32,690 bases of DNA from Candidatus Scalindua sp. (GTDB lineage: Bacteria > Planctomycetota > Brocadiia > Brocadiales > Scalinduaceae). Location of the stretch: the NCBI GenBank assembly GCA_021777035.1, contig JAIQZR010000188.1:1-32690 (forward strand), read 5' to 3'. The position numbers and the translations under genes were made by a program. Shown here one piece after another: positions 5,988 through 32,081 of the stretch. Under the pieces are notes generated by a model, which saw nothing but the letters and a program-made list of their open reading frames with translations, was not told where the DNA came from and searched no databases. Every line of letters begins with the position of its first letter. The stretch's first letter is position 1.

Positions 5988-7559
5988 GTGGCAAAGATTA
6001 AAACCGCTCTAATAAGTGTTTCCGACAAGACGGGAATAATAGATCTTGCTAAAGGTCTGGCCGGCCTTGGTGTTAAGATTTTGTCAACCGGTGGTACCGC
6101 TAAATCGATCAGGGAAAGTGGTATAGAAGTTACAGATGTATCTGAATATACTGGTTTTCCTGAAATAATGGATGGCAGGGTAAAGACGCTCCATCCAAAG
6201 ATACATGGTGGTTTGCTTGCTGTAAGGGATAACGAGGGTCATATGAAACAGATAGCAGATTTAGGGATTGGCACAATAGATCTAGTTGTTGTTAATCTGT
6301 ATCCGTTTGAGAAGACTATCAGCAAGGAAAATGTATCTCAAGAAGAGGCTATTGAAAACATTGATATTGGTGGGCCGTCCATGATCAGGTCAGCTGCTAA
6401 AAATTTCAAACATGTTGCAATAGTAGTAAATCCTGATAGTTATGTTGCGCTATTGGCAGAATTGAACAAACTGGACGGTGATCTCTCATACGAAACGCGT
6501 TATGAGTTGGTTACTGAGGCGTTTAAACATACCAGCCAGTACGATAAGGTCATCTATGATTATTTTAACAGGGACAATAAGGAGGCTTATCCGGGGTTGT
6601 TAAGCATTGAAATGCATAAAAAGCAGGATCTGAGATATGGAGAAAATCCCCATCAGACAGCAGCATTTTATACCTATAAGAATTTTAATGTTCCATGCAT
6701 TTCAAATGCGGAACAGTTACATGGTAAGGCTTTGTCTTTTAATAACATATTAGATACCGATGTTGCCATTGAAATTGTTAAGGAGTTTGATGTGCCGTCC
6801 GCCGTCTTAATCAAGCATGCTAATCCATGTGGTGTTGCATGTGCAGAAAACCTTAAAGATGCTTTTACGAAAGCATATAGTACCGATACCGTTTCGGCTT
6901 TTGGATGTATACTGAGTTTAAACAGGACAGTTGATGTGGCGACCGCTGAGGCCATTACAGAACCAGGTCATTTTGTTGAGGCGATTGCTGCGCCGGGATT
7001 CGACGATAAGGCAATCGAGATTTTGACTACAAAGCGAGGTTGGGGAAAGGATCTTAGATTGTTGAAATTAAACTCATTGGGAGATTCTTCGTCCAAAGAA
7101 GGTATTAATGATTTCAGAGGTGTTGTTGGTGGTTTATTGGTTCAGGATAAAGATATGAATTCAGGTGACAAAGATAAACTGGAAGTCGTCACAAAAAAAT
7201 CTCCGTCAGAAGATGAGATAGAGGAGTTGCTATTTGCATGGAAAGTCTGCAAGCACGCGAAATCAAATGCAATAATTTTTACAAAAAATAAGATGGTTAT
7301 CGGTGTAGGAGCGGGCCAGATGAGCCGAGTTGACTCCACAAACATCGCAATCAGCAAATCAGATGGCAGGGCTTCCGGAACTGTTATGGCCTCTGACGCC
7401 TTTTTCCCTTTCAGAGATTGTATAGACATTGCGGCTAAGGTAGGAATTACCGCCATAATACAGCCTGGGGGTTCTAAAAAGGATCAGGAATCTATAGATG
7501 CAGCAGATGAACATGGAATCGCTATGGTATTTACAGGCGAAAGGCATTTTAAACACTAA
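5988..7559 (+). CDS. purH: Bifunctional AICAR formyltransferase / IMP cyclohydrolase
   Basis: PurH catalyses the last two steps of de novo IMP synthesis. The 523-residue length is normal. The N-terminal IMP cyclohydrolase (MGS-like) domain shows ALISVSDKTGI, LSTGGTAKSIRE, FPEIMDGRVKTLHPKIHGG and NIDIGGPSMIRSAAKN. The C-terminal AICAR transformylase domain shows RYGENPHQTAAFY, the catalytic KHANPCGVA segment, SNAIIFTKN, GVGAGQMSRVDS and the closing AMVFTGERHFKH. The start is GTG, preceded by GGAAGGGAG about 8 bases upstream. It is followed after 55 bases by a lipoprotein gene in the same direction, probably on the same transcript. Nothing is missing or unusual. Confidence 0.97.
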   Translation: MAKIKTALISVSDKTGIIDLAKGLAGLGVKILSTGGTAKSIRESGIEVTDVSEYTGFPEIMDGRVKTLHPKIHGGLLAVRDNEGHMKQIADLGIGTIDLVVVNLYPFEKTISKENVSQEEAIENIDIGGPSMIRSAAKNFKHVAIVVNPDSYVALLAELNKLDGDLSYETRYELVTEAFKHTSQYDKVIYDYFNRDNKEAYPGLLSIEMHKKQDLRYGENPHQTAAFYTYKNFNVPCISNAEQLHGKALSFNNILDTDVAIEIVKEFDVPSAVLIKHANPCGVACAENLKDAFTKAYSTDTVSAFGCILSLNRTVDVATAEAITEPGHFVEAIAAPGFDDKAIEILTTKRGWGKDLRLLKLNSLGDSSSKEGINDFRGVVGGLLVQDKDMNSGDKDKLEVVTKKSPSEDEIEELLFAWKVCKHAKSNAIIFTKNKMVIGVGAGQMSRVDSTNIAISKSDGRASGTVMASDAFFPFRDCIDIAAKVGITAIIQPGGSKKDQESIDAADEHGIAMVFTGERHFKH

Positions 7560-7614
7560 ATCTGGACACGAATTATACAAAACAATATTATTTTAGGAAG
7601 GAGTATTAAAGTTT

Positions 7615-8352
7615 ATGATACCAAAAAATAACACGCTTAATGGTTTACTGGTAATTGCAATTTTGATTATGTTCTTCGCGGTAGGGTGTACAACAACTAC
7701 GGTGAAAGAGACATCATCTCTCTCTGCAACAATACCGGAAACAGGTCTAACAGAAATTACCGACACAAATCAGATTCCAGGATTTAGAGATGATTATGGC
7801 AGGATAGAATTGCTTTACGCAGTAGACAATAGCAGGGAATATTTTAAAAAAGTTGAGTCATATCCTGATACCTTTAAATCAATAGGTTTTACTCCTGAAA
7901 AGCAGATAGAGACCTTAAACCTTTTCAGGGATGGATACGTTAGTAGCAAGAGCCCGCAGGAGCTGACAGAATTTATTGCTAAAAACTTCAGAGTGTTTCA
8001 GGCTAACGGGGCCGCAGTCCAGTTTGCAGGTTATGGATTTGCTGTTTTCGGTGACGATGTGAAAAGAAAATGGGATCATACAGTTTACAAAAGTTCAATA
8101 GGTTTTCCTGCTACACAGATGCGGAGCATTGCTACCGGTGAAGGATTTTATCCTCCAGGAGGGCTCGCATTTGCCGTCATAGAAACAGGAGAACAGAAAG
8201 GGAAATCATTCTTTGCTTTGGGCCATGATACCAAGAGTTCTATCAAGACGGCTGCCAGGGCAGATATCTTCTTCGGAATAGGCAAAGAGGCCCTTCGCAA
8301 GGCGGAGAATTTTAATACCTCTGGTAAGCTTTATTACCTTCTAAAGCGTTAA
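7615..8352 (+). CDS. Lipoprotein with MltA-type 3D (double-psi barrel) domain
   Basis: The product has 245 residues. An N-terminal hydrophobic segment ends in a lipobox (FFAVGC, lipidated Cys25), so it should be an outer- or inner-membrane lipoprotein. The C-terminal third resembles the 3D domain of membrane-bound lytic transglycosylase A: MRSIATGEGFYPPGGLAFAV, then ALGHDTKSSIKTAARADIFF and ending GKLYYLL. Asp205 (HDT) occupies the place of the catalytic Asp of MltA, and Asp217 lies in ARADIFFGIG. MltA is usually about 350 residues; here the first domain is reduced to a short FAGYGFAVFGDD stretch, so glycan cleavage is plausible but unproven. The start follows AGGAAGGAG by 11 bases. It lies downstream of purH and is closed by a strong hairpin. 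Confidence 0.65.
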   Translation: MIPKNNTLNGLLVIAILIMFFAVGCTTTTVKETSSLSATIPETGLTEITDTNQIPGFRDDYGRIELLYAVDNSREYFKKVESYPDTFKSIGFTPEKQIETLNLFRDGYVSSKSPQELTEFIAKNFRVFQANGAAVQFAGYGFAVFGDDVKRKWDHTVYKSSIGFPATQMRSIATGEGFYPPGGLAFAVIETGEQKGKSFFALGHDTKSSIKTAARADIFFGIGKEALRKAENFNTSGKLYYLLKR

Positions 8353-8368
8353 GTTATAAATTAACCGC

Positions 8369-9425: not shown

Positions 9426-9495
9426 TATATATGGAGGGTTAGTGTGTATAACCAGTTATGCAATATGCTATATAAGATAAAATATTTATGATAAA

Positions 9496-9624: not shown

Positions 9625-9681
9625 GAAGTAATTTTTCCTAAGCTCGTCTCAGGAAAAACAAGATTCTTGCTTTTGATTATC

Positions 9682-10131
9682 ATGAAAAAACTTTCTATAG
9701 GCGAATTAGCAAAGTATACGGAAATTCAAGTCGGAACTATCCGTTATTATGAAAAACGTGGTTTGATCTCGAAACCGTGTAGACTGGAATCCGGGTACAG
9801 GAGATTCTCTCTAAAACATATTGGAGAGATAGAGTTTATAAAGCAGGCAAAAGACTTAGGTTTTTCCCTGAAGGAAATTTCAGAACTTCGTACTCTCGTG
9901 CAGGATAAAGATGTTAAAAGTAGAATCCACGAATTTATAGCCGCCAAGTTAAAATATAGTGAAGACATTATCAGTGATCTTAAAAGAAAAAAAAGGTCTT
10001 TACAAAACATTCTTAAGAGATGTTCAGGTGGGGAATGTGTATACACGTGCTGCCTCTTCGAACCTCTTGGAGCCTCCTGGGTGGTAAACACAATTCCCGG
10101 TTTGTGTAACCGACCAAAGAATGAAACATAA
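9682..10131 (+). CDS. MerR-family transcriptional regulator, metal-binding type
   Basis: The product has 149 residues from the ATG at 9682; a TTG at 9667 with AGGA 12 bases upstream is an alternative start. Residues 1-70 form the winged-helix DNA-binding domain (LSIGELAKYTEI, VGTIRYYEKRGLI, SGYRRFS). A dimerisation helix follows, then a Cys-rich loop: KRCSGGECVYTCCLFEPL. The Cys-x8-Cys spacing resembles ZntR/CueR-like metal loops. The cysteine that MerR and ZntR carry at the start of the dimerisation helix is absent (QDKDVK there), so the metal cannot be named. The MerR-type operator at 9303 is its likely site. The gene stands alone between two inverted palindromic elements. Confidence 0.85.
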   Translation: MKKLSIGELAKYTEIQVGTIRYYEKRGLISKPCRLESGYRRFSLKHIGEIEFIKQAKDLGFSLKEISELRTLVQDKDVKSRIHEFIAAKLKYSEDIISDLKRKKRSLQNILKRCSGGECVYTCCLFEPLGASWVVNTIPGLCNRPKNET

Positions 10132-10230
10132 GCAGTTAAAAATAAAGCTCTTACAACAGTACGTGTGGAAAACTGATATAAAAAAGTTCTCCCATTAGGT
10201 GTTAAATTTATGTATGGTCTTTCAATGGTT

Positions 10231-10332
10231 GGTAGGAGCCGTCTCCCGACGGCGAGCGTAAGCGTTCAAATGCAATAATTCGGTCGCCAACAGGAGTTGG
10301 CTCCTACCTGAGTATTTATGCCGAAGGCTTAA
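10231..10332 (+). repeat. Palindromic element type A, copy 2
   Basis: GGTAGGAGCCGTCTCCCGAC, then GCGTTCAAATGCAATAATTC in the centre, then CAACAGGAGTTGGCTCCTAC, ending TATTTATGCCGAAGGCTTAA. It is nearly identical to copy 3 at 20121-20250 and inverted relative to copy 1. The left terminal ATGCATAGG is not preserved here. Confidence 0.85.
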
Positions 10333-10650
10333 TTTTCTGATTGTAATTTTCTAAAATATTTTGCTTGTCTACATAATAAACTCTACGTCTCTGAATCCCA
10401 ATCTCGGTCATACGGAGACATTATTGCGTGTTACGTTATTTCCCGTTCATCTGGATTTCCGCTATAAAGAATGCGGGAATGACAGTTTTCGGACAAAAAT
10501 GGAACACGCGCAAAAACCGAAACGGATGCTACTGAAAGGTATTTATAGTTTAATGAATAAAAATTTTAATGTTGTCTGATCCGAAACGAGTTGTGAATGA
10601 CAGATCAGATGTCACTTTCGTGAAACCTGCCATCGACACCGATCTTGGAT
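10333..10650. other. Non-coding stretch before the first kinase
   Basis: I see no credible gene. A 72-codon frame at 10361-10579 has no ribosome binding site and no family resemblance. It overlaps a decayed dyad (TTTCCCGTTCATCTGG at 10439 and GCGGGAATGACAG at 10471) that looks like a dispersed bacterial repeat. The promoter of the kinase cluster presumably lies here, but I cannot point to a convincing one. Confidence 0.5.
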
Positions 10651-12978: not shown

Positions 12979-13102
12979 AGAGGTGAGAAGCAAGAAATAC
13001 TTACCTTTACAGTATATGGGAGCATTGTTATGATTCAGCCATATAAGAATCATAAAGCATATCTGGTCTCTTACTATAGCCAATTATAAACTCTGATTGA
13101 TT

Positions 13103-14596
13103 ATGAAGATAAAGACAAAATTTCTCGGCATTATGGGTATTTTTATTGTTATGATTATTATCACAGCAATATTCTTCTTGTATAGCTATTACAGGCATAG
13201 CATGGAGAATGTAACTGGCATGTTAAGCTATCAAGAGGAACTGGAGAGTGTCTCCCAATTGGAACTGTTTCTTTATAAGGCTCTCATGCCTGCAAACGAT
13301 TACCTTATCTACGGGAATAAAGAGGAGAGAGAAGAATTTAAAAATATTGATGTGAAGGTACATCAGTTGTTTCAGGAGTTGGAAGAACACGATCGTATCA
13401 CACAATTAAGGTTTGAAGAACAGAAACTCCTCTCACACGTGCAGAATCATTACGTTACGATAAAGGACATATCTGAAAAGCTTCTTAATCTGACTGATCC
13501 TGTAGGGGATGCAGAGGGAGGGCGTCTTATGGAGGAGATGGACTCAGTAGCTGATCATATACTTGAAGACATGAAGATGTTCCACAGGGTTGTCAGGCTT
13601 GAGGTACTTGGAATGATTGGGACTATGGATGCACGCTTCTATAAGAATATGATTATGATATTGATTATATTTCCTGTTACAATCACATTCTTATTTATCT
13701 ATGAGATATTTCTCTCAAAAAACATCTTTACACCCATTACGCATTTAACGAAAAATATGAATGATATGATAGAGACCGAAATGACAACTACAAACTCTGC
13801 TCCAGAAAATGAAATACGCTTGTTGACGTCTACCTTTAACAAGATGTGTAGTTTATTAAAAAAATCACAGGAAGAGCTTATCGGGAGAGAAAAACTTGCT
13901 GTTATCGGTCGTTTAACAGGTTCCATTGCCCACGACATCAGGCACCCGCTAACAACTATTAAAAACTCATCCTATTTTCTCAATATGACACTGAAGGACG
14001 CGGATGAGAAAACGAGGAAACATCTCAAGTTTATCGATGCTGAACTTGCTCATGCTGAGGAAATAATTACGAGTTTCACGAAATTGGCGAAACATGAAAA
14101 ATCTGATTTTTGCAGGACGGATATCAATAACGTTATTAAGGAATCACTGCAAGCCTGTCATTTGCCAGAATATATAACACTCACATTTGAACTTGATGAA
14201 AAATGTCCTGAAATAATGGCAGACAGTATTCAGATGAAGCGGGTGTTTGTCAATCTGGCATCAAACGCGAAACATGCCATGCCGGAAGGGGGGACGCTTA
14301 CCGTAAAGACGCGGATAGTAAAGAGTTCGGAGTTGGGAGTAAAGGAGGAAAAATGCCTGAACTCCGGACTCAAAGGGAATTTCGTAGAAATCTCCTTTGA
14401 AGATACCGGCAGTGGTATAAAAAAAGAGGAATTGGACAAAATATTTGAGATATTTGTCACAACAAGAGAAAATGGAATAGGATTAGGTCTGTCAATAGTT
14501 AAGAATATTGTTGAGGTACATGGAGGGAAGATATCGGTGGAGAGTGAAGAGGGGAAGGGGAGTGTGTTCAGGATTGTGTTTCCTTTGGATTTATGA
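13103..14596 (+). CDS. Membrane sensor histidine kinase (sensor-HAMP-HisKA-HATPase)
   Basis: The product has 497 residues from ATG 13103 (TTG 13097 is an alternative). A first membrane helix at ~8-29 and a second at ~185-207 bracket a ~155-residue, mostly helical extracytoplasmic region, like a four-helix-bundle sensor. HAMP follows (~208-255), then HisKA with AHDIRHPLT (phospho-acceptor His277) and a HATPase with NLASNAKHAM, DTGSGIKKEEL and GIGLGLSIVKNI. The kinase core is a close paralogue of the preceding kinase, and 85 bases in the 3' part are identical (12861-12945 and 14479-14563). It has no PAS domain. The gap from the previous gene is 124 bases, and the double-receiver gene starts 25 bases after its stop. 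Confidence 0.92.
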   Translation: MKIKTKFLGIMGIFIVMIIITAIFFLYSYYRHSMENVTGMLSYQEELESVSQLELFLYKALMPANDYLIYGNKEEREEFKNIDVKVHQLFQELEEHDRITQLRFEEQKLLSHVQNHYVTIKDISEKLLNLTDPVGDAEGGRLMEEMDSVADHILEDMKMFHRVVRLEVLGMIGTMDARFYKNMIMILIIFPVTITFLFIYEIFLSKNIFTPITHLTKNMNDMIETEMTTTNSAPENEIRLLTSTFNKMCSLLKKSQEELIGREKLAVIGRLTGSIAHDIRHPLTTIKNSSYFLNMTLKDADEKTRKHLKFIDAELAHAEEIITSFTKLAKHEKSDFCRTDINNVIKESLQACHLPEYITLTFELDEKCPEIMADSIQMKRVFVNLASNAKHAMPEGGTLTVKTRIVKSSELGVKEEKCLNSGLKGNFVEISFEDTGSGIKKEELDKIFEIFVTTRENGIGLGLSIVKNIVEVHGGKISVESEEGKGSVFRIVFPLDL

Positions 14597-14621
14597 TTTG
14601 CGATTGTCGATTTAATAAATA

Positions 14622-15371
14622 ATGAACAACAAACTATCAGTATTGATTGTGGATGATGATCCTAATATAGGTGATACCCTTGTAGATATTATTGATGCAA
14701 GTGGTTATGAAGCGGATTTTGTCACAAGTGGTAAAGACGCCTTAAGTTTAATTACGGAAAAGAATTACGATGCAATACTCATGGACATCAGGATGCCAGG
14801 TATGAATGGTGTGGAGACTCTCAAATGTATAAAACAGTACTCTCCGATGACCTCAATTGTCATGATAACCGCTTTCGCGGAAGACAAACTTGTCGAACAG
14901 GCAAGAATTGAGGGAGCGTTGCAGGTGCTGCCAAAACCTCTTGACCTGAAAAAGATTATTCATTTTTTAGGAAAAATGTGTCGTCTGAAAACCCTGCTTG
15001 TCGTAGATGATGACGTAAAGTTCTGCGACTCTCTTCGAAAAACCCTTCAAGATCATAATTATAGAGTTATTGTGGCCAATAATGTACACGATGCTCTTGA
15101 GACATACCATAAGGGAAAAACGGAATGTATCCTGGTCGATGTGAAGCTTGATGGGGATAACGGGACTGGTGTGGTAAACACGATCAGGGCTAAAGATTGC
15201 GAGAGCGTCATTATCCTGATGACAGGCATTTGTGAGCAATTTCAACCATTAATCGATGAAGCCCTGAAGGAAAAGGTAGAGTATTTTATTGAAAAGCCCT
15301 TTAATTTCGATAAAATCATCGAACTGATTGAGGAAGTCATTCGTAAAAGGTTACAGGCAGTATTGAGGTGA
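14622..15371 (+). CDS. Double-receiver (REC-REC) response regulator without output domain
   Basis: The product has 249 residues forming two CheY-like receivers. The first has LIVDDDPNIGD, phospho-acceptor Asp55 in AILMDIRMPGMNG and VLPKPLD. The second has LLVVDDDVKFCD, Asp173 in CILVDVKLDGDNG and YFIEKPFNFD. Both keep the acidic pocket, the Asp and the Lys of the KP motif, so both should be phosphorylatable. There is no DNA-binding or enzymatic output domain, so it probably relays or buffers phosphoryl groups between the two kinases upstream and the large HD-GYP protein downstream. It begins 25 bases after the second kinase gene. Confidence 0.92.
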   Translation: MNNKLSVLIVDDDPNIGDTLVDIIDASGYEADFVTSGKDALSLITEKNYDAILMDIRMPGMNGVETLKCIKQYSPMTSIVMITAFAEDKLVEQARIEGALQVLPKPLDLKKIIHFLGKMCRLKTLLVVDDDVKFCDSLRKTLQDHNYRVIVANNVHDALETYHKGKTECILVDVKLDGDNGTGVVNTIRAKDCESVIILMTGICEQFQPLIDEALKEKVEYFIEKPFNFDKIIELIEEVIRKRLQAVLR

Positions 15372-15433
15372 AAAAAAATTCACCACCGAAAGACACGGAA
15401 TACCACAGAAACGGACTGATTAAATAATAGACA

Positions 15434-18400
15434 ATGGATAAACCAAAACTCCTTGTTATAGACGATGATAGAAACCTCTGTGAGAGCTTGACGGATATCC
15501 TTGAAGCAAAAGGTTATCTGACGGATTCGGCCCATACCGCTGAAGATGGTATAAAGAAGACACAGGGAGGTTTTTATAACGTCATTCTGCAGGATATGAA
15601 ACTTCCCGACGCGAACGGAATAGACACCCTGGAGAAGATTAAGGATATTTCTCCGGATACGGAGGTAATAATCTTTACCGCCTTTGCTGAGACAGGGAGT
15701 GTGATAAAGGCTATGGAGAGAAAAGCCTTTTCATATATCGTTAAACCCTATGAAATAGCGAATCTATTAGATACGGTTAACAAGGCTTACGAAAAACAGG
15801 AGTTACTGCTTGAAAACCGCGCTCTATTTCAGAAGATATCTGATTCCAAGAAAGATTGGGAGAACACCTTTGACGCAATCCAGGACATGATCAGCATACA
15901 GGACATGGAGTTCAATATCGTTAAATGCAACAAGGCAGTTGCAGACACCTTTCATGTCAAACCCGGGGATCTCATAGGGAGAAAATGTTACGAGCTATTT
16001 CATTGTGACAAGAAACCATACGATAAATGCATTTTGCGCAGGTGTGAAGAGACACGGAAACAGGAAACTGAAGAGATAGATTTTTTGCCTTTGAACGGAA
16101 CAATTGAGATCACATGTTTTCCAAGATTTGACGAAAGAGGCAATATGACTGGCATTGTGCATGTAGGAAAGGATATCACGAGTAAAAAAAAGAGTGAGAA
16201 AGAGGAGGAAATACTCAGAGAGATATCAGCGAAATTAAGCGTAACACTGGATCCTGAGGAAATCTGCGAAATAATCTCTGACTGTATCGGACATATAATT
16301 CCCCATAACCATTTAATCCTTACTTCGGTGGATTCCGATACGCAAACCATGATTGTGCTTGCGGTCAGAGATAAAGAAAAGAATCTGAATATTAAAGCAG
16401 GCACGCAACTATCGCACAAAGACATGCCAACATTGTACTCCGCCTGCAAAAGTAAAGAGGTAGTCTATACATCTTTTGAGGAGATGAGAGGGAAGAATGT
16501 TGCATTTGACAATGATATTTTGGAACGTGAAGGGATTAAGAGGATTGTGATTGTGCCACTGGTCGTTGGCGGCGATGTAATCGGTTTGTTTGTACTTGCA
16601 TGTAGAAATGTTGACACCTCTTTTTTCCGTGAAGACGCCAGGCCGGTTTTGCAGAAGATAGCCGATATTCTGGTTGGCCCGATATCAAATGCTTTATTAC
16701 TTGAAAGGATAAGTACGTCCGAGAAGAAGTACCGTGAACTGTTCGAGACCAGTACTGACGGAATTTCTTTTACAGACCTTGAAGGAAATATCCTTGATTG
16801 TAATAAAGGGTATATAGATATGCTGGGTTATTCCCTGGAAGAGATAAAGACAAAGAGGTATCAGGATATCACTCCTGCAAAGTGGCATGATATGGAGGAG
16901 ACGATAGTCAGAGAGCAATTACTGAAAAGAGGTTTTAGTGATTTGTATGAAAAGGAATATATCAGGAAAGACGGAATCGTATTCCCTGTTACGTTAAGGA
17001 GTTGGTTTCAAAAGGATGAAAAAGGCAACGTAAAAGGGAAGTGGGGTATTGCAAGGGATATTACCCGGCTGAAATCTGATGAGGCCAGGATTCTCAGGCA
17101 ACGCAATCTCCTCAATGCAATCAACACGGTGTTCAAAGAAGCGTTAACGTGTGAAACAGAAGAAGAGGTTGGCTCTGCATTTCTGGCTGCGGCAGAGGAG
17201 TTGACGGGCAGCATGTTTGGTTATGTCGGTGAAGTGAACCCTGAAACAGGTCTCTTCGATACCATTGCCTTAAGCAATCCTGGCTGGGATGCCTGCACAA
17301 TTCCTGAAACGAATGCGGTAAAAATGATTAGTAATATGGAAATCCGTGGGATTGATAGAACAGCGCTCAGTGAGGAAAAGTCACGAATAGTCAATGACCC
17401 TGCATCTCACCCCGACAGAGTAGGGGCGCCGGAAGGTCATCCGCCGTTAACGTCCTTCCTGGGCGTTCTATTAAAACATGGAGGTAAGATATTTGGCATG
17501 ATAGGCCTGGCAAACAAAGAATCGGGCTATGAGCTGGCAGATCAGGAAGCGGTGGAAGCCTTATCTGTAGCATTCGTGGAAGCATTGATGCGTAAGCGAG
17601 CAGATTCAGCGCTGAAGAGAAGTGAAAAACGCTATGCGTCAGTCTCCGGTATGACATCTGATTATGTTTATCACATAAACGTCAATTCCGGGAAGCAGAT
17701 GACGGTTGATTCGATTACAGAAGGTTTCACAAAGTCAACAGGCTATACCGTAGATAATATACGGAACCCGGAAATGTGGAGAGAGATAGTCCCTCCTGAT
17801 GATATTTCCATTCTCATGGATACTTTCCGGAAAATTATAATGGGAGATTCAGGTGATTTCGAGTGTCGTATTATTACAAAAAAGGGCGAAAAGCAGTGGT
17901 TGCATGTTTACGGGCAGCCCGAGTGGGATGACAAACAGCAGATTGTTACCGGCATAATTGGCGCAGTATCCAATATTACTGAGCACAAGCGTTTCGAAAA
18001 GAGGATATTAGAGGAATCAGAGATTAATGAAATCCTGCTCAGTGTTTCAAATATAATATCAACAATGAAAAACCGGCAGGAATTGATAGAAAACACCTTA
18101 GAGACAGTCTATAAGAGTCTCAAAGGCGAATATTACTCCATAGCCTTATTGGATGAAGATACAAGGTCATTTAACACTATCGGCGCAAGGGGCACAGAGG
18201 ATTCGGTTACTAATATACTCAGGACAATAAGGTTTCAAGGGCCGTATGTTCCTTTGATAGAAAGGATGATGGAATCTAAAAAGTCTTTTGCGGTTACTAT
18301 TGACGAGACTGACGTAAAGACGAGGGAATTTATGAGAGAGATTCAGGCAAGGTCAATGTTGATAGTCCCGTTGGTTGCCGTTGGGATGGTAGCCGGATTT

Positions 18401-19624
18401 ATGCTGTATTATTACGCATCAGACCGCCCGTCTTCAGGAGCATCCAGTGCTTTCAGTCGTAAGGAAGATGCGGTGATTAAGGGGGCGGCGAGACAGTTAT
18501 CACTGGGTATTGAAAATGCAAGGCTTTATCAGGAATTGATGAATAAGACCGCTGTTCTTGAGAACAAGGTAGAGGTAATTTCAGTAACGCGGGATATTGA
18601 CAGGATCATCCTTTCTACCCTTGAGCCTGTTCAGATATTTGAGACTTCTACTCGGCTTGTAAGTCGCATAATCCCCTGTGACAGGGTTACGATTGTAATG
18701 ATTGATAAAGAGAGGGGCGGTTTTGTATATACGGCGGGATGGGGAGTTAAACTTGAGAAAGGGGATTTTGTGAGCTTTGAAGACACGAATACAACCGAGG
18801 TTGTGAGGACGGGAAGGACGATTGTTCGTTTGAATATTGCTGAGGAGAGTGGCCTCTTATCATTGGATAAGTCATTGCTGGAGCAGGGATTCCTGTCAGA
18901 CATACGCTTGCCGTTGATAATAAAGGGCGAGGTCTTCGGATTGCTGAACATTGGAAGCTATAGAAGGGCTGGTTTTACTCCTGAACATATTTTTATTGCC
19001 ACAGATATTGCCGCGCAGATCTCAGTTGCGATGAGTAATGCGAACCTTATAAACGAAGTAAAGGAGCTTTACTTTAACATGGTCAAGTCACTTTCTGCGG
19101 CGATTGACGCGAAGTCGGAGTGGACCAAGGGGCACTCCGACAGGGTGATGGATATTGCGATGTCAATCGGTAAGGAGATGGGTTTAGAGACGGACGACAT
19201 GGAAGATCTGAGATTTTCGGCAATACTCCATGATATAGGCAAGATCGGGACATATGAACACATCCTGGACAAACCGGGAAACTTAACAGAAGATGAGCAG
19301 AGGATTATGCAACAGCATCCAGCCAAGGGAGCGGAGATATTAAAAAGTATCAGGCAATTTAAGAATATTGTGCCTGCGGTATTGCATCATCATGAACGGT
19401 TTGATGGGAAGGGGTATCCAGACGGGTTAAAAGGCAAAGAGGTTCCTTTGTTTGCGAGGATAATCCATGTCGCGGATTCATTTGATGCCATGGTCTCAGA
19501 GAGGCCGTACAGGAAGGGATTGAGAAGGGAATTGGCGATGGAAGAGATCAGGAAGTTTTCAGGCACACAATTTGATCCTGAAATCGGTGAGGTATTTTTA
19601 AAGATAATAGATTCTTACAGTTGA
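15434..19624 (+). CDS. REC-PAS-GAF multi-sensor HD-GYP protein (c-di-GMP phosphodiesterase)
   Basis: The product has 1396 residues, all apparently cytoplasmic. Likely order: REC (4-118, acceptor Asp54 in ILQDMKLPDANG), PAS (~140-250), GAF (~260-420), PAS (~425-550), GAF (~555-720), PAS (~730-855), GAF (~860-1030), GAF (~1050-1200), HD-GYP (~1210-1390). The output domain has the HD pair at 1266-1267 (LHDIGKIG) and HHERFDGKGYPDGL with the GYP triplet at 1327-1329, so metal-dependent hydrolysis of cyclic-di-GMP is expected. Up to seven sensory modules between receiver and output imply integration of several internal ligands. It begins 62 bases after the double-receiver gene. A decayed CACAGAAAC-type repeat lies in that gap (about 15381-15411). 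Confidence 0.93.
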   Translation: MDKPKLLVIDDDRNLCESLTDILEAKGYLTDSAHTAEDGIKKTQGGFYNVILQDMKLPDANGIDTLEKIKDISPDTEVIIFTAFAETGSVIKAMERKAFSYIVKPYEIANLLDTVNKAYEKQELLLENRALFQKISDSKKDWENTFDAIQDMISIQDMEFNIVKCNKAVADTFHVKPGDLIGRKCYELFHCDKKPYDKCILRRCEETRKQETEEIDFLPLNGTIEITCFPRFDERGNMTGIVHVGKDITSKKKSEKEEEILREISAKLSVTLDPEEICEIISDCIGHIIPHNHLILTSVDSDTQTMIVLAVRDKEKNLNIKAGTQLSHKDMPTLYSACKSKEVVYTSFEEMRGKNVAFDNDILEREGIKRIVIVPLVVGGDVIGLFVLACRNVDTSFFREDARPVLQKIADILVGPISNALLLERISTSEKKYRELFETSTDGISFTDLEGNILDCNKGYIDMLGYSLEEIKTKRYQDITPAKWHDMEETIVREQLLKRGFSDLYEKEYIRKDGIVFPVTLRSWFQKDEKGNVKGKWGIARDITRLKSDEARILRQRNLLNAINTVFKEALTCETEEEVGSAFLAAAEELTGSMFGYVGEVNPETGLFDTIALSNPGWDACTIPETNAVKMISNMEIRGIDRTALSEEKSRIVNDPASHPDRVGAPEGHPPLTSFLGVLLKHGGKIFGMIGLANKESGYELADQEAVEALSVAFVEALMRKRADSALKRSEKRYASVSGMTSDYVYHINVNSGKQMTVDSITEGFTKSTGYTVDNIRNPEMWREIVPPDDISILMDTFRKIIMGDSGDFECRIITKKGEKQWLHVYGQPEWDDKQQIVTGIIGAVSNITEHKRFEKRILEESEINEILLSVSNIISTMKNRQELIENTLETVYKSLKGEYYSIALLDEDTRSFNTIGARGTEDSVTNILRTIRFQGPYVPLIERMMESKKSFAVTIDETDVKTREFMREIQARSMLIVPLVAVGMVAGFMLYYYASDRPSSGASSAFSRKEDAVIKGAARQLSLGIENARLYQELMNKTAVLENKVEVISVTRDIDRIILSTLEPVQIFETSTRLVSRIIPCDRVTIVMIDKERGGFVYTAGWGVKLEKGDFVSFEDTNTTEVVRTGRTIVRLNIAEESGLLSLDKSLLEQGFLSDIRLPLIIKGEVFGLLNIGSYRRAGFTPEHIFIATDIAAQISVAMSNANLINEVKELYFNMVKSLSAAIDAKSEWTKGHSDRVMDIAMSIGKEMGLETDDMEDLRFSAILHDIGKIGTYEHILDKPGNLTEDEQRIMQQHPAKGAEILKSIRQFKNIVPAVLHHHERFDGKGYPDGLKGKEVPLFARIIHVADSFDAMVSERPYRKGLRRELAMEEIRKFSGTQFDPEIGEVFLKIIDSYS

Positions 19625-19648
19625 TGATTATATCGCTTTCAATGTTAT

Positions 19649-19716
19649 TGGCAGGAGTCGTCTCCTGACGGCGATCGTCAGGATTTTACGCTGTGAGTTC
19701 GATCGCCTGTCCTCCA
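19649..19716 (+). repeat. Decayed palindromic element type A
   Basis: GGCAGGAGTCGTCTCCTGAC and GATCGCCTGTCCTCC resemble the left arm and part of the right arm of the type A element, with an unrelated centre. The right half and the GCCGAAGGC end are missing. It lies just after the HD-GYP stop codon and could contribute to termination. Confidence 0.6.
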
Positions 19717-19930
19717 AAAAAGCGCCAAACAGTCTCATACAAAAAACGGGGAATGCGCCCATTTTACATCGCACATGATAGTAACCTGCATTTCGCATCA
19801 TTCACATCAACCGGTGGATAAATAAGATAATCCCATGTAAGTTACGCTATCTTTCCAGATGTCCAGACTATATGAGACTTGAACCTACATATTTTATGTG
19901 ATAAAATCTAAGTTTTTGCTGCTTGTCTTG
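19717..19930. other. Non-coding spacer between repeats
   Basis: No open frame of interest, no strong hairpin and no recognisable promoter. It separates the decayed element from the type B element. Confidence 0.4.
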
Positions 19931-20120
19931 ATGCATAGGAAATTCAAAGTCGGCGGGTAACCTGCCCGACTTCGCTATTCAGGCGGGGAAACCCGCTCTA
20001 CAAAATATTATGTTTTTTTACTCGTAGGTCGGGTTTCCCCGCCGGTACCTATTCGGGCAGGTTACCCGACATTTTTTAACAGACATTATGAAGGCAAAGA
20101 ATTTTGCCGAAGGCTTAACT
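19931..20120 (+). repeat. Palindromic element type B (same ends, different core)
   Basis: The element starts ATGCATAGGAAATTC and ends TTGCCGAAGGCTTAAC, the same ends as type A. Its interior consists of other inverted repeats: GTCGGCGGGTAACCTGCCCG near the left pairs with GGGCAGGTTACCCGAC near the right, and AGGCGGGGAAACCCGC pairs with GTCGGGTTTCCCCGCC. It abuts the type A element at 20121. The shared ends with exchangeable cores suggest a family of small non-autonomous mobile elements. Confidence 0.75.
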
Positions 20121-20250
20121 TAATGCATAGGGAATTTTAATGTTTTGGTAGGAGCCGTCTCCTGACGGCGATCGTAAGCGTTCAAATGTAATAATTCGGT
20201 CGCCAACAGGAGTTGGCTCCTACCTGCGTATTTATGCCGAAGGCTTAACT
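20121..20250 (+). repeat. Palindromic element type A, copy 3
   Basis: It starts TAATGCATAGGGAATTTT, carries the arms GGTAGGAGCCGTCTCCTGAC and CAACAGGAGTTGGCTCCTAC, and ends TTTATGCCGAAGGCTTAACT. It is nearly identical to copy 2 at 10231. A short GCAGGCGGGGAAACCCGCC palindrome, related to the core of type B, follows directly (about 20251-20269). Confidence 0.85.
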
Positions 20251-20341
20251 TGCAGGCGGGGAAACCCGCCTTAACAAAAATATTTTGACCAATTATGGCA
20301 AAATATTCGAATATCGAAATCCGAAGCAAATACAAAACCCG

Positions 20342-20499
20342 AATGCTCAAAATCTTAAACGTTTAGTGTTGAACATATTTTTTGTTTAGAACATTTGTTT
20401 CTTTGACATTCGGATTTGTTTCGAATTTTGTGCTTCGGATTACTGATTTTCCAGCTTGTCTGGGTTAGGTTATTGCATTTATTAGATTCTGAAAAAAAT
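20342..20499 (+). repeat. 158-bp dispersed repeat, copy B, upstream of the NOD-like gene
   Basis: It is identical to 9067-9224 except for one base. It ends 15 bases before the start codon of the NOD-like gene, so any promoter and leader of that gene must lie in or beyond this repeat. It contains a TTGACA at 20403-20408 but no good -10 at the right distance. A related inverted segment (AAATCCGAAGCAAATAC) lies just upstream at about 20320. Confidence 0.9.
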
Positions 20500-20514
20500 C
20501 CAGAATGACAAATT

Positions 20515-22836
20515 ATGAAAAGTACTAATTGGTGGAAATACTTACTTGCTGTGCTGGTTGTGGGTGCTTCCGGTGTTATATTTATGGGTTTCAGTACGTA
20601 CAAAGACGCGCCGCCAAAGCCTGATTATATTTCGCCTTCAGGGGTCGAAATTGTTCAACGGGCTGCTGTTGAACGTGGACAGTTGGTCTTCCAGAAATAT
20701 GCTTTGATGGAATACGGAAGTATGTTTGGTGATGGTGCTGCTCGCGGACCAGATTTTACTGCCGAAGCTCTCCACCGTGTTGCTGTTGAGATGAACGATT
20801 ATTATGGCAAACAGATTGCAAATGGTAATTTGGAGACGTTGTCTCAAATAGAAAAAGATGGTATTTCTGTCAGAGTAAAGCGTGAACTTAAGGCAAATCA
20901 CTATGACAGCGAGAGAAATGTTGTTGTTCTTACCGAGGGGCAGGCGTACGCAGCAGAACAGCTGGTTGAATACTATAGTTCAAAATTCAAGGGAAATCAT
21001 AAGGAGGCTTTTAAGCCATCCGGCTATATTACAGATGATTCGGAACTCAAAGACCTTACGGCATTCTTCTTCTGGGGTGCGTGGGTTTGTGCAGTAGAAA
21101 GGCCCGGAGGAGAATCCAGTTATACCCATAACTGGCCTTTTGATGAATATGCCGGGAACACTCCAACTCCGTCAGTGATTTTATGGAGCGTTATCGGGAT
21201 GCTGTTTTTGATTTTCGGTTTGGGTGCGGTTCTCTGTACTTACAGTTACTATTCCAAGAATTCTCAGCTACAGGTCAAAGAAAATCCTGTTAACAATAAA
21301 AGTATTGAAGCATCTGCTCCTACGGCAAGTCAACGGGCAACATACAAATTCTTTGTGGTAGCGGTGTCACTGTTTTTCATACAGTTAATTGCCGGCGTCT
21401 TGACAATTCATGATTTTGTCGGATTTACAACTTTTTTCGGCTACAATATTTCTGAATTTCTGCAGATAACGATTACGCGTAGCTGGCATGTACAGTCATC
21501 TATTTTGTGGATAGCAACATGCTGGATAGCCGGTTCTATTTTCATCCTCCCGGGTATTCACAGGCAGGAACCGAAGCGTCAGGTTCTCCTGATCAACATA
21601 CTCTTCGGCTTACTGGTTTCAGTGGTTATCGGAATGCTTGTGGGTTGTTTTATGGGACCAAAGAACCTTCTTGGTGACAATTGGAGACTGTTTGGTAATC
21701 AGGGTTGGGAGTTTGTTGAACTTGGCAAAGTGTGGCAGATCGTTCTCTTTGCGGCACTCATTATGTGGGCTGTGATTGTATACCGTGGAGTAAAACCTGC
21801 TTTGAGAGGGCAGTCTGCATTCTCCTTGCCATATTGGATACTCTACTCTGTGGTGGCTATTACTATTCTGTTCATGTCAAGCTTTGTCGCTGGTAAGAAT
21901 ACGAATTTTGTTATTGCAGATTTCTGGCGCTGGTGCGTTATTCACATGTGGGCAGAGTGTTTTTTTGAGGTTTTTACGACAATCATTATCGCATGTTATA
22001 TGGTCTTAATGGGTCTGGTTTCCAGACAGGGTGCGACCAGGGTGATTTACCTGGCGACACTGTTGTTTCTCGGTTCTGGTCTGCTGGGTATTTCTCATAA
22101 CTTTTACTGGAACGCAAAACCAGCCGCTCTTATGGCTATGGGCAGTGTCTTCTCGACGCTCCAGGTTATTCCCCTTGTACTGCTGACACTTGAAGTCTGG
22201 AAGTTCGTACGGGTACCGGATTATTCGTTGAGACGTTCAGCAAATTCTGCCGTAGCAGGATCATCCTTCGGATTCTCAGAGGCATTTCTTTTCCTTATTG
22301 CCGTAAATTTCTGGAACTTTTTTGGTGCTGGTGTATTCGGCCTGATAATAAACCTTCCGATAATAAATTACTACGAACATGGCACTTATCTGACGGTTAA
22401 TCATGGTCATGCTGCTTTAATGGGCGTTTACGGAAACCTTTCGATAGCGGCAGTTCTGTTCTGCAGTCGACATGTTATAATATTGAAACGCTGGAATGCA
22501 AGGCTTCTGCGCTCTTCCTTCTGGGCGATTAACGTGGGGTTACTGCTGATGGTGGTGATGGATACATTCCCGGCCGGAGTTTTACAATTCAGGTCGGTTG
22601 TTGAAAATGGCTACTGGGTAGCTCGTTCACAGGAATTTATTCTTGGCGGTACCTTCCAGTTATTGACATGGATGCGTGCGGTTGGTGGTGTGCTCTTTTT
22701 TGCCGGTGTGATACCGCTACTTTACTTTATGATTTCGCGACTAAATTCGCTTAAGCCGGTTGCGACAGAGCAGAGGGCAGAAAAACCGGTTCTTATAAAA
22801 GAAGAGTTGCCGGAGTGTGATGTGCAGGTAGCATAG
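20515..22836 (+). CDS. nod: Putative nitric oxide dismutase (NOD-like qNOR paralogue)
   Basis: This is a 773-residue quinol nitric oxide reductase-fold protein: one N-terminal helix, a heme-free cytochrome c-like domain (RGQLVFQKYALMEYGSMFGD, RGPDFTAEALH) and about 13 further membrane helices. Heme-ligand positions are kept: His325 (RSWHVQ), His630 and His632 (VNHGHAAL). FeB ligands His477 and Glu481 (IHMWAE) and His528 are kept, but the third FeB ligand is Asn529 (ISHNFYW instead of HH). Gln550 replaces the Glu of the SALEVVPL motif (STLQVIPL). In the quinol site, canonical HYxVExxxF reads HDFVGFTTF (Glu to Gly303), and the Asp of the PGD motif is Gly725. From memory, HH-to-HN and loss of quinol residues mark NOD (2 NO to N2 + O2) rather than NO reductase. 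An in-frame TGA lies 9 bases before the ATG, which fixes the start; the ribosome binding site is poor. Confidence 0.8.
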   Translation: MKSTNWWKYLLAVLVVGASGVIFMGFSTYKDAPPKPDYISPSGVEIVQRAAVERGQLVFQKYALMEYGSMFGDGAARGPDFTAEALHRVAVEMNDYYGKQIANGNLETLSQIEKDGISVRVKRELKANHYDSERNVVVLTEGQAYAAEQLVEYYSSKFKGNHKEAFKPSGYITDDSELKDLTAFFFWGAWVCAVERPGGESSYTHNWPFDEYAGNTPTPSVILWSVIGMLFLIFGLGAVLCTYSYYSKNSQLQVKENPVNNKSIEASAPTASQRATYKFFVVAVSLFFIQLIAGVLTIHDFVGFTTFFGYNISEFLQITITRSWHVQSSILWIATCWIAGSIFILPGIHRQEPKRQVLLINILFGLLVSVVIGMLVGCFMGPKNLLGDNWRLFGNQGWEFVELGKVWQIVLFAALIMWAVIVYRGVKPALRGQSAFSLPYWILYSVVAITILFMSSFVAGKNTNFVIADFWRWCVIHMWAECFFEVFTTIIIACYMVLMGLVSRQGATRVIYLATLLFLGSGLLGISHNFYWNAKPAALMAMGSVFSTLQVIPLVLLTLEVWKFVRVPDYSLRRSANSAVAGSSFGFSEAFLFLIAVNFWNFFGAGVFGLIINLPIINYYEHGTYLTVNHGHAALMGVYGNLSIAAVLFCSRHVIILKRWNARLLRSSFWAINVGLLLMVVMDTFPAGVLQFRSVVENGYWVARSQEFILGGTFQLLTWMRAVGGVLFFAGVIPLLYFMISRLNSLKPVATEQRAEKPVLIKEELPECDVQVA

Positions 22837-23063: not shown

Positions 23064-23324
23064 TTGGAGTGGAAAATTATAGGTATAATCGCCGCAGTGT
23101 GTACAACTTCAGGCTTTATACCTCAGATAATAAGAGGATTACGTACAAAGAGACTGGATGATGTATCTCCCGTTATGTGTATACTCCTAATCTTTGGCCT
23201 TTCTCTGTGGTTGTCTTATGGCATACATATAGAGGATATGATAATTATCGTGGCAAATGCATTTGGCGTTTTATTCAGCGTAATTATTATTACTTTGCGC
23301 TTTAAATATATGAGACAAAGATAA
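23064..23324 (+). CDS. SemiSWEET / PQ-loop family small transporter
   Basis: An 86-residue protein with three predicted membrane helices (~5-22, ~37-55, ~58-78). The first contains the PQ-loop signature SGFIPQIIRGLRTKRLDDVS, typical of bacterial SemiSWEETs, which form dimers and let sugars diffuse across the inner membrane. The start is TTG at 23064, with AAAGGAG about 10 bases upstream. The substrate cannot be read from the sequence. It follows the NOD-like gene by 227 bases with a hairpin repeat in between, so co-transcription is doubtful. Confidence 0.85.
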   Translation: MEWKIIGIIAAVCTTSGFIPQIIRGLRTKRLDDVSPVMCILLIFGLSLWLSYGIHIEDMIIIVANAFGVLFSVIIITLRFKYMRQR

Positions 23325-25892: not shown

Positions 25893-26222
25893 TTAGCTTT
25901 CTTCTCCTGAACATGATCGCTTTTCTTGATTCCATAGAGTATTTAGATCGCGTGCCCCATGTATAAATCCAATTATGTAAATTGTATCTTCAGTTACTTG
26001 ATAGATCATCCGATAACTTCTCACATAAAGCTCTCGTATACTCGGATTGTTGAATTCAGGCACTATTCTACCTTGTTTGGCAAAATAAGCTAATGAACGT
26101 GCAGCATCTCTTACTTCACGAACAAATCCCGAAGCATAATATGTTGAATCTTTAGCAATATAGTCTGCAACTCCCTCTAAATCGTTATATGCGACATTCG
26201 TCCATTTTACTTTCCCAGCCAT
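25893..26222 (-). CDS. RelE/ParE-family toxin
   Basis: A 109-residue protein of the RelE/ParE superfamily. It has the N-terminal helices (VKWTNVAYNDLEGVADYIAK), the central RIVPEFNNPSIRELYVRSYR strand region, and the closing MIYQVTEDTIYIIGFIHGAR. The Arg-rich strand followed by the 'Y(R/Q)V..D.I.I..(I/V)..(G/H)(A/R)R' ending is typical. Whether it cuts mRNA (RelE) or blocks gyrase (ParE) cannot be read from the sequence; the ending resembles ParE. Its ATG at 26222 lies inside the antitoxin gene, overlapping by 16 bases, which indicates a coupled operon. Confidence 0.85.
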   Translation of the reverse strand: MAGKVKWTNVAYNDLEGVADYIAKDSTYYASGFVREVRDAARSLAYFAKQGRIVPEFNNPSIRELYVRSYRMIYQVTEDTIYIIGFIHGARDLNTLWNQEKRSCSGEES

Positions 26223-29024: not shown

Positions 29025-29104
29025 ATTACTTCTCAATAATGGTGTCATTTAAAGCTTAAACTGTCAAGTTCATCCCCCCACAATCTTAATTTCTTCCTCC
29101 GTCA
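29025..29104 (-). repeat. 80-bp direct repeat, copy 2: 3' end of the type IIG gene and flank
   Basis: This copy includes the real last codons and stop of the restriction gene (29070 onwards) and 45 bases beyond. The partner lies 1144 bases away at 27881-27960, on the other side of the cyclase gene. The arrangement is that of a cassette inserted with, or by recombination within, a duplicated gene end. Confidence 0.8.
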
Positions 29105-32081
29105 ATCCATACAATTCATAAACCAGTTCATCAATTTGCCTGTCAGTTGCTTCAATTTGACGGTTGAGGACTGTTTTCTGTTGTGGAAGTTTAGCTTGTG
29201 CTAATTGTTTGTGAAAGTCTAGCATCTGATCAACCAGGGCAACAGTCTGATCATGTTTCTTTTTTTGTAATTTATTAGTAAAATCAATTTTAAAAACAGG
29301 AATCTGGATTAAATATTGATATATGAATCTTAAGTATCCTCCTCTATAAGTTGATGAGATATTTCTATAGAAAAAGCTTACAAGCGAAGAATTCAGGATT
29401 CCTAAAAGATATTTATCATCACTAGAAATAATATAAGCTGTGTTTACACAATATTTGTTTCCTTCTAAATCAACCATAAAGTTGCCCCGCAACGAAATAT
29501 CTGGCAGAACTATTTTAGGCTTCCCAAATTCCTCAATATAATCACACGCCCTCAGTTCCCACCAATATTCACCTTTATCATACCGCTTTTTGGCAGCTTC
29601 AATAAATGGTGATAAATGATTCGCAACAGCCGGATAGTTTTTCTTGAACCAACTCCATGCATCACTGGTATTATTAGAACTTTTATTTGTCCAGCCTTTA
29701 GGCATCAAAATTAGATGTTGATTGCTGTTTAACGTCTGATATCGTTTTATATCACGTCCTAATAAGAAAGGCTTAATGATTTCCGCACTCTTTGGGTCTT
29801 CAGAAATAAGCCTATCTTTCATCTCCGTATCAATTACAAATGCCTTGTTAAGTCCAGTAAGAACACCTCTATAAATTTTTCCATTTACGTACTCTTTTAA
29901 TGGAATTCCTGATGATTTCAACTTGTTTAATAATGATATATTCCCTTCATCTACAAGTGACCATCCTTTGTCATCGAGATTGGTTAGTTTTACCGGATGG
30001 CAATTTTTACTCACATAATTTTGAAGACTATTGAATTCGAGAGTACTTACCTGTGCTGCTGTCAGGGTTGAGGCGGGAGTATCCTTGCTAATTATGATTA
30101 TACACGGATAAGTAGTGGCTTTCTGAAAAACAGGCAAATCGCCAAAGTCAGTAATCTCCATAATATGCTGCTGCTTCAGCCAGCATCGGAGTGGTTCACC
30201 ATAATTTGCCCGCATCCATTTATTGGCGACTATGTAACTGAACAGACCTTTATCCTTAAGCAGTGAGATACCTCGTTCAATGAAGTACGCATATAGATCG
30301 GCACTACCATGATATACCTTGTAATTGTTCTGGAAATAAGTCTTGAAATCTCCAATACTCTCTTGCCTGACATACGGTGGATTGCCAATTACCGCATCAA
30401 ACCCTCCGTCTTTCATGATTTCAGGAAACTCCTTATTCCAATCAAAGACATTGATGCGGAACATTTCGTCTTCATTGAGTAGAGTCATCTGTTTGCCGTG
30501 GTAAAAGTCAGGGCCAATGAGTGAATTTCCGCATTTGATGTTGTTGTGCAGGTCAGGCAATACTCGCTCTTGAAATAGTGAAAGTTGACGGCCTATCGTC
30601 TGTTCGTTCTCTCCTTCAAGTACCTTGAGCAGGAGTGAAAGTTTTGTTACCTCTACGGCCTGATGGTCAATATCCACTCCATAAATATTATTAAGAAGAA
30701 TGCGCTTCCGTTCATCGGTAGTAAGCCGCCATTCGCCGCCTGTTCCCTGATAAAGGCGCGGAGTCCGTCCCTTTGCCCATTTATGTGGGTCGTCATTCAC
30801 ATATTGATCAAGGTGCCAATCGAGCAGAAACTGATAGGCTCCAAGCAGAAATGAGCCTGAGCCGCACGCCGGGTCAAGAATCCTGAGCTTACTTACGCCG
30901 CCCTGCGGGCCTGGTTTTTTAGCATCTACCAATTTGCCGACTGTTTGTTTGACGATGTAATCTACGATGTAGGTAGGTGTATAGTAGACGCCGCCCGCCT
31001 TTTTTACTTCCGGTTTGTCCTCAACTATGGCACGGTGTGCAGAGGTAAGGCGAATGACCTTCCCAAGAAACTGTTCATAAACCTGGCCAAGTATATCAGC
31101 AGGGAGGACGGAGAATTCATAAGGGCTGTCCGGATAATAGAGATTATTGATGACGTCTTTCAGCGTTTTATCATCAATGGCCAAGTTTGGAGTGAGACTG
31201 TCGTGTATATCCTTGCGCTCTTTTTCTTCCTTAAAATGGAATAGACCTGAATTGTATTTGTCGTCAGCTTTACGAAAGAGTTGAAACAGTTGTTTGTAGA
31301 CATTGTTTCCGTCTTTCAATTCCATCAGCTTTCCATAGGGTTCAATCGCACGGGCTTCACAGATGCGGAGGAAAATTATTCTGTCAATAGTAGATTGAAC
31401 AGCGAAGTTAAGTTCCCGTTGACTCAGATCAGGATTTCTCAATGCGATATTCTTGGCAAAGAGATCGCGCCAGCGCTCAATCTCTTGTAAGAAAGCCGCA
31501 TCGACTTCCGTGGTACCACGCTTAGACTTTTTAGATTCAACATATTTGTCGAATGAACCTTTCAGGATTGCTTCACGAGAGAAGATGTTCGTAATCTCTT
31601 CCCATCGTTCAGCATATTCTGTGTAGGTCATATAAAGAATGCGGGAATGTGAAGACTTGTCCGTCTTGACCGGTTTGGCGCGGCAGTCATAGACGGCAAG
31701 CTCCTCAAAATCGGTAAGAATACTGAGAGGGAGTTTGGCGCTCCAGGCATAGCGGCGAATTTGATAGGCGGGGTGGATATCTTCCTTTATGTTTACTGAA
31801 GGCTTTTTGGCCTCCAAAAAAAATTTGCGCACACCTCCGATACGAAAACCATAGTCAGGGGCCTTTGTTGCCTGGCCTATCTTGATAGACTCCTCGTGGA
31901 CTACGTCTTTATATGCTTCGGCATAACCTTGTTTGTTGGCAATATCCCAGCCCAACTCTTCAAAGAATGGGTCAATGAACTCACGTCTGATCTGGGTTTC
32001 GTTATATCTGCCCTGTTTGTAGGCATCCAGATTGCGGTCAAACCGCTTTACAAGTTCGAGGATTTTCGTGGGTATTGTCAT
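29070..32081 (-). CDS. Single-chain type IIG restriction-modification enzyme
   Basis: A 1003-residue fused nuclease-methyltransferase. The N-terminal PD-(D/E)xK nuclease shows Asp76 (APDYGF) and Glu90-x-Lys92 (FFLEAKKPS). A helical linker follows, then an N6-adenine gamma-type methyltransferase with motif I ILDPACGSGSFLLG (~401-414) and motif IV NPPY (567-570, VIGNPPYVRQES). Beyond that is a TaqI/Eco57I-like target-recognition region (~770-950, for example LLGILNSSLVSFFYR and YRGGYLRFIYQYL) and a C-terminal coiled segment ending YGLTEEEIKIVGG. One protein would both methylate and cut, so no separate subunits are needed; the recognition sequence is unknown. All key residues are present. It is the first gene of the minus-strand defence set; the ATG at 32081 has only a weak A-rich leader. 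Confidence 0.92.
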   Translation of the reverse strand: MTIPTKILELVKRFDRNLDAYKQGRYNETQIRREFIDPFFEELGWDIANKQGYAEAYKDVVHEESIKIGQATKAPDYGFRIGGVRKFFLEAKKPSVNIKEDIHPAYQIRRYAWSAKLPLSILTDFEELAVYDCRAKPVKTDKSSHSRILYMTYTEYAERWEEITNIFSREAILKGSFDKYVESKKSKRGTTEVDAAFLQEIERWRDLFAKNIALRNPDLSQRELNFAVQSTIDRIIFLRICEARAIEPYGKLMELKDGNNVYKQLFQLFRKADDKYNSGLFHFKEEKERKDIHDSLTPNLAIDDKTLKDVINNLYYPDSPYEFSVLPADILGQVYEQFLGKVIRLTSAHRAIVEDKPEVKKAGGVYYTPTYIVDYIVKQTVGKLVDAKKPGPQGGVSKLRILDPACGSGSFLLGAYQFLLDWHLDQYVNDDPHKWAKGRTPRLYQGTGGEWRLTTDERKRILLNNIYGVDIDHQAVEVTKLSLLLKVLEGENEQTIGRQLSLFQERVLPDLHNNIKCGNSLIGPDFYHGKQMTLLNEDEMFRINVFDWNKEFPEIMKDGGFDAVIGNPPYVRQESIGDFKTYFQNNYKVYHGSADLYAYFIERGISLLKDKGLFSYIVANKWMRANYGEPLRCWLKQQHIMEITDFGDLPVFQKATTYPCIIIISKDTPASTLTAAQVSTLEFNSLQNYVSKNCHPVKLTNLDDKGWSLVDEGNISLLNKLKSSGIPLKEYVNGKIYRGVLTGLNKAFVIDTEMKDRLISEDPKSAEIIKPFLLGRDIKRYQTLNSNQHLILMPKGWTNKSSNNTSDAWSWFKKNYPAVANHLSPFIEAAKKRYDKGEYWWELRACDYIEEFGKPKIVLPDISLRGNFMVDLEGNKYCVNTAYIISSDDKYLLGILNSSLVSFFYRNISSTYRGGYLRFIYQYLIQIPVFKIDFTNKLQKKKHDQTVALVDQMLDFHKQLAQAKLPQQKTVLNRQIEATDRQIDELVYELYGLTEEEIKIVGG

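Follow-up and report, generated by a model that had tools for sequence, protein, structure and literature searches.

The closest described relatives of the protein treated here are the qNORs and the putative nitric oxide dismutases (NODs). Three marks have been given for the putative NOD: an Asn in place of a His, a Gln in place of a Glu implicated in catalysis, and the absence of a proper quinol site (Ettwig 2012, PMC3413370). The nod sequences of another study deviate at His328, Glu332 and Phe336 (PMC10286720). The name has been applied to Muricauda (PMC3413370) and to Algoriphagus (PMC10264387), and amplicon studies describe 'unknown qNor-related' sequences that lie between nod and qNor and need cautious reading (PMC7338807, PMC10286720). 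The NOD enzyme itself is described as neither isolated nor characterised, with conflicting results (PMC13386854). In the Arabian Sea oxygen minimum zone (OMZ), Scalindua-affiliated sequences made up 40% of norB/norZ reads, and NC10-type nod was not found (PMC4830246). A nod gene in two Ca. Scalindua metagenome-assembled genomes (MAGs) has been reported in one sentence (PMC10359470).

Here, we analyse a stretch of 32,690 nucleotides (the window), which is contig C99 of the 4.16 Mb Ca. Scalindua bin G000, and in particular one of its genes, P0001. Judged from its residues and its place in the tree, P0001 is a member of the broadly defined NOD superclade, outside the branch that holds Methylomirabilis. 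As a search of the open PMC library shows, the occurrence of nod in Scalindua is already in print. The present analysis adds an assignment at the level of residues, a placement within the superclade, the distinction of two lineages in the family, the lack of the gene type in 45 further genomes of the order, and a locus that relatives have in common. The printed gene comes from the same genus and is of the same type by the HMM used there; it is matched to P0001 by description and not by sequence, and in the accessible text it comes without an analysis of residues, branch, locus or distribution (PMC10359470).

The gene, its predicted fold and its active site

P0001 is a protein of 773 amino acids, encoded from an ATG start by the open reading frame at 20515..22836 on the plus strand, as are all features of the protein given below. 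Pfam places a NorB cytochrome-c-like domain (PF22085) at residues 39-208 (20629..21138) and a COX1 domain (PF00115) at residues 275-727; no CxxCH haem c motif occurs anywhere in the protein. The AlphaFold2 model has a mean pLDDT of 83.7, falling below 50 at residues 564-582. Both its sequence and its predicted fold have qNORs as the closest solved structures, with that of Geobacillus first (3ayf, TM 0.89; Alcaligenes 8bgw, TM 0.87), and the match spans the whole length. The gene is under purifying selection, with dN/dS of 0.05-0.12 against four congeners; two more distant pairs were saturated.

Aligned with Geobacillus qNOR, the P0001 residues His477, Glu481, His528, Asn529 and Gln550 (codons CAC, GAG, CAT, AAC and CAG) fall at positions 508, 512, 559, 560 and 581, and Geobacillus numbering is used from here on unless two numbers are given. 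His508 and Glu512 (21943..21957) are the same as in qNOR. At 22096..22101 the FeB ligand His559 is kept and His560 is replaced by Asn, and at 22162..22164 a Gln stands at the catalytic-pocket Glu581. The other catalytic residues checked are conserved, so that P0001 shares with the Geobacillus and Alcaligenes qNORs not only the fold but also His508, Glu512, His559, His651 and His653. The former quinol site (21409..21435) retains His328 (His299 in P0001) and Phe336 (Phe307), and Gly303 stands at Glu332; a second glycine, Gly725 (22687..22689), stands at the quinol-binding Asp746. In place of the canonical qNOR signature of HH at FeB, Glu581 and Asp746, P0001 thus carries N, Q and G, with Glu332 also replaced by Gly. 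Set against the marks listed by Ettwig in 2012, the aligned residues include the Asn and the Gln, while the third mark is present by half, with two of the four quinol-site residues checked replaced. The five residues first named, and the codons AAC and CAG, are as the earlier note on this DNA had read them. Its constant offset of 31 from Geobacillus numbering applies to about positions 469-595, which include all five; elsewhere it comes to 17 (position 90), 29 (257-298), 30 (359-363) and 21 (607 onwards).

Relatives were gathered by searches with P0001, L090 and L159 (the best 120 proteins each, plus 80 loci), which confines the sampling to groups close to one of these queries. In the resulting 498-row alignment, the set H-E-H-N-Q at positions 508/512/559/560/581 is found in 478 of 479 superclade rows, the remaining row having T and Q, while 19 of 19 canonical qNOR rows have H-E-H-H-E together with Asp746; the rows include near-duplicates and the same genes fetched twice and are not independent (canonical L141 and L142 are one gene). 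None of the 479 rows has H at 560 or E at 581. Throughout the Scalindua clade (25 of 25 rows, at 79-100% identity to P0001) H-E-H-N-Q is present, with Gly at 332 and 746 and with His328 and Phe336 retained. A canonical qNOR with two sequencing errors, an explanation the earlier note had thought unlikely, is ruled out by the presence of N and Q throughout the Scalindua clade and in all but one row of the superclade. Residue assignment is alignment-based, and locus matches spanning at most 550 residues, together with L092 and L098, were left out of one alignment. A clean switch from a small canonical set to the NODs (at least 94% and at least 90% conserved) is confined to five positions: 90 (H/D), 509 (L/M), 560 (H/N), 565 (G/A) and 581 (E/Q), among them those of the FeB ligand and of the Glu. 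The 16 canonical planctomycete qNOR genes that were fetched are 35-40% identical to P0001.

Branches of the NOD superclade

The set with N and Q is split from the canonical qNORs with support 100 in trees of 97, 84 and 49 rows, which were built in the quick mode of IQ-TREE with SH-aLRT support only and gave long-branch warnings at 97 and 84 rows. The 84 and 49 rows used in trees and topology tests were chosen by hand from the 498 to span the groups. The alignment and tree that the earlier note had proposed as a check place P0001 with the NODs; one contrary outcome it had named, a position deep among canonical qNORs with HH in the relatives, was not found, since HH occurs in none of the superclade rows.

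Inside the N and Q set an NC10-like branch stands apart with support 100 (84- and 49-row trees). It holds the Methylomirabilota sequences P0331 and P0357, as well as P0349, which bears the JGI name nitric oxide dismutase. Opposite it (support 90, 84-row tree) the Scalindua rows group with Planctomycetota, Bacteroidota (Hydrotalea, Algoriphagus and Muricauda), Melainabacteria and Rhodocyclales. Membership of the branch of Methylomirabilis, the organism in which dismutation was originally postulated, was rejected, one clade of that branch with Scalindua having a p-AU of 5.3e-7. The likeness to the Methylomirabilis enzyme drawn in the earlier note therefore stands as to the NOD-type site and the grouping with sequences called NOD, but not as to the NC10 branch, and His328 and Phe336 are kept. 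The comparison with NC10 was made through P0331 and P0357; the sequences of M. oxyfera (DAMO_2434/2437) and strain HdN1 lie outside the sample. The putative Nod of Ca. Methylomirabilis has, like P0001, Asn at 560, Gln at 581 and Gly at 746. Unlike P0001, the NC10 branch has lost His328, which is found in none of its 126 rows, 20 of them placed by tree and the rest assigned through the search with L159. The two sides differ at 24 positions, each at least 85% conserved in each. Thr514, Ile564 and Lys660 of the NC10-like branch correspond to Phe, Asn and Tyr on the other side (each 1.00 after rounding), and these residues are candidates for a possible functional difference between the branches.

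NODs of the Muricauda, Algoriphagus and Sediminibacterium type lie on the same side of the tree as P0001, in holders that are not anammox organisms; Muricauda ruestringensis itself and Sediminibacterium are outside the sample. Algoriphagus (L072) and Hydrotalea (L022) have exactly the residue set of P0001 (H328, G332, F336, G746). The Muricauda rows L051 and L073, 53-55% identical to P0001, differ from it in having N328, D332 and A746. Four genomes of one planctomycete family (G177, G206, G275 and G310) have two matches each (L157-L160; L119, L120, L122 and L123), with identities to P0001 of about 62% and of 46-47% and both with N and Q; in G177 and G275 the second of the two groups in the NC10-like branch.

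Host, distribution and locus

Scalindua is an anammox bacterium of the ocean and of groundwater, and in this respect the anammox-type host that the earlier note had considered is borne out by the genus. The hydrazine synthase gene HZS_alpha is present in 13 of the 17 genomes of the family and without a match in G000 and its near relative G008, which is probably an assembly gap of the MAG; the anammox pathway of this bin is accordingly read from its relatives. The best named relative of P0001 among the matches listed is from a Ca. Scalindua MAG (L002, 92% identity).

The gene type occurs in 11 of the 17 family genomes (9/13 of the genus of the window and 2/2 of a second genus), in all 11 with N and Q. 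Of two further genomes with only a weak match, G003 matches by a cbb3 CcoN and G016 by a cNOR-like protein with HH; the four others gave no match. Among 45 genomes of the other families of the order the gene type was found in none, two weak matches being to CcoN-like genes. The two Scalinduaceae genera carry different lineages, the copies of the second genus (L090 and L091) being 47-49% identical to P0001. One origin for both lineages was also considered, and the corresponding single clade was rejected (p-AU 0.0003).

The gene order in G005 is TPR-PPDK-purH-3D-NOD-PQloop, and the same order is present on the window contig, with identities of 78-91% (63% for 3D). In the window, purH and the 3D-domain gene lie at 5988..8352 (plus strand), and a gene for a PQ-loop membrane protein at 23064..23324 (plus strand). 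The 3D gene directly precedes the NOD gene in G005, G008 and G012, with 384-503 bp between them, and the PQ-loop gene follows it in G005, G007, G008 and G013. At least one of these neighbours stands beside the NOD gene in five of the ten other gene-holding genomes (G005, G007, G008, G012 and G013), and none in the stretches fetched from G006, G009, G014, G001 and G002, several of which end close to the gene; the listing omits weak matches to the sensor, TPR and Fib_succ genes, those below 50% identity. This conservation bears on whether the gene came into the bin by contamination or mis-binning from a non-anammox bacterium. A bin contamination of 5.51% and the missing HZS_alpha in G000 and G008 would fit such an origin, but we consider it very improbable given the order shared with G005 and the presence of HZS_alpha on the contig of the orthologue, at a distance of 25 kb (G005) or 26 kb (G007).

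Between the 3D and NOD genes the window has a block of 12 kb (8353-20514) that is absent from this place in G005, G008 and G012. It encodes a DUF2335 protein, a MerR regulator, two sensor kinases, a double response regulator and a PAS/GAF/HD-GYP protein of 1396 aa. Related short inverted repeats with the core GGTAGGAGCC...CTCC...GGCGA occur near both ends of the block (9490-10337 and 19648-20224) and resemble REP-type repeats; a tandem run of CGCACA lies at about 9352-9432. Downstream of P0001, on the minus strand, are a ParE-type toxin gene (25893-26222) and a gene of the restriction-modification type, whose product combines Eco57I, TaqI_C and MmeI methylase domains (29070-32081).

Surrounding metabolism and possible reactions

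The genome has a gene for a cytochrome cd1 nitrite reductase and, at a contig end, the start of a gene for cbb3 CcoN, the catalytic subunit. Two further proteins seem to be DUF542/NnrS-like. No match to a P450 or a fatty-acid desaturase was found in the genome, and a Pfam scan of 19 of 41 window ORFs (at least 80 aa) gave no oxygenase family. CcoN is present in 9 of the 11 genomes with the gene type and in 18 of the 51 without it (p 0.007), or in 7 of the 51 when only matches of at least 75% identity are counted. Inside the family the link is not significant (9/11 with the gene type and 4/6 without it, p 0.58), and the association may thus reflect shared ancestry. A culture study of Scalindua reported its highest transcript levels for cbb3, with little change on exposure to O2, which would fit a basal need for the oxidase; NO was formed from nitrite alone, and the words nod, qnor and norB are absent from the accessible text (PMC13253579).

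The reading that we favour, tentatively and with a likelihood that we put near but below even, is that P0001 is an NO dismutase, turning NO into N2 and O2, with the O2 removed by the cbb3 oxidase. NO would be supplied by the cytochrome cd1 nitrite reductase. The damaged quinol site and the altered FeB and proton pocket would lead the enzyme to pair and rearrange NO without reduction to N2O, and the O2 produced would be consumed by the cbb3-type oxidase. Support for this comes from the consistent N and Q of the superclade as against the H and E of all canonical rows, from the split between the two in the trees, from the loss of Glu332 and Asp746 and the lack of CxxCH, from the cd1 nitrite reductase gene of this genome, and from the presence of CcoN in most genomes with the gene type. 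Counted against it are the retained His328 and Phe336, the exclusion from the NC10 branch and the want of any oxygenase, desaturase or P450 among the matches. Several named holders of the Scalindua-side branch are ordinary aerobes. These aerobic holders, the separate branch and the two retained residues bring close behind the dismutase a modified NO reductase, which would take electrons from quinol via His328 or from another donor and make N2O, in the detoxification of NO or in respiration.

Such a reductase is quite conceivable, if short of probable. The retention of His328 and Phe336 across the Scalindua clade leaves quinol as a possible electron source, and P0001 lies outside the NC10 branch. 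PF00115 has six matches in the genome, two of them fragments, and none besides P0001 is a full-length NO-reductase-like heme-copper gene, which leaves P0001 as the sole candidate. The expression of qNor by S. profunda was taken in 2013 to indicate NO stress (PMC3655542), and qnorB-like genes of the ETNP with this active site track N2O, whose formation by them has been argued (PMC5723336). The joint replacement of the FeB His and the catalytic-pocket Glu, reversed in no superclade row, together with Gly at two positions of the quinol site, speaks against an NO reductase of the normal, quinol-driven kind; the lack of a haem c motif also counts against the reductase. An N2O reductase has only a sub-threshold match in the genome; the control genomes were likewise without a match, and the search says little about absence. 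A third possibility, which we regard as rather improbable, is that P0001 binds NO or O2 but has another task, such as slow scavenging of NO, sensing, or a reaction directed at O2. The low dN/dS speaks for a function that is kept without specifying its kind, and immediately upstream is the block that encodes sensor kinases, response regulators and an HD-GYP protein. This block is, however, not at this place in the three relatives compared, and the conserved residues at 508, 512, 559, 651 and 653 also count against such a task.

Returning to the dismutase, a wider claim would be that Scalindua makes its own O2, respired at once by cbb3, that it possesses another way from NO to N2, one that bypasses hydrazine, and that NOD activity extends across the non-NC10 side, in Planctomycetota and Bacteroidota; we consider this claim as a whole rather unlikely, though not implausible. 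Were dismutation to take place, an oxygen-shy organism would gain an inner source of oxygen, one that is independent of light and lies in a main nitrogen-removing bacterium of the oxygen-poor zones of the ocean. This would help to explain the strongly expressed oxidase, and would change which organisms are assigned the N2 and N2O of these zones. If N2O were made instead, the nod marker gene would have been over-read across the Scalindua side of the superclade. Either product bears on many nod-type genes outside Methylomirabilota. Public names already diverge from the site: P0015, P0028, P0036, P0122 and P0331 are entered as 'qNor nitric-oxide reductase' or 'cbb3-type cytochrome c oxidase subunit I' despite their NOD-type site. 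The Scalindua japonica copy, P0015, is among those filed as qNOR, and its site, as read from the aligned residues, is of the dismutase type, so the record calls for correction.
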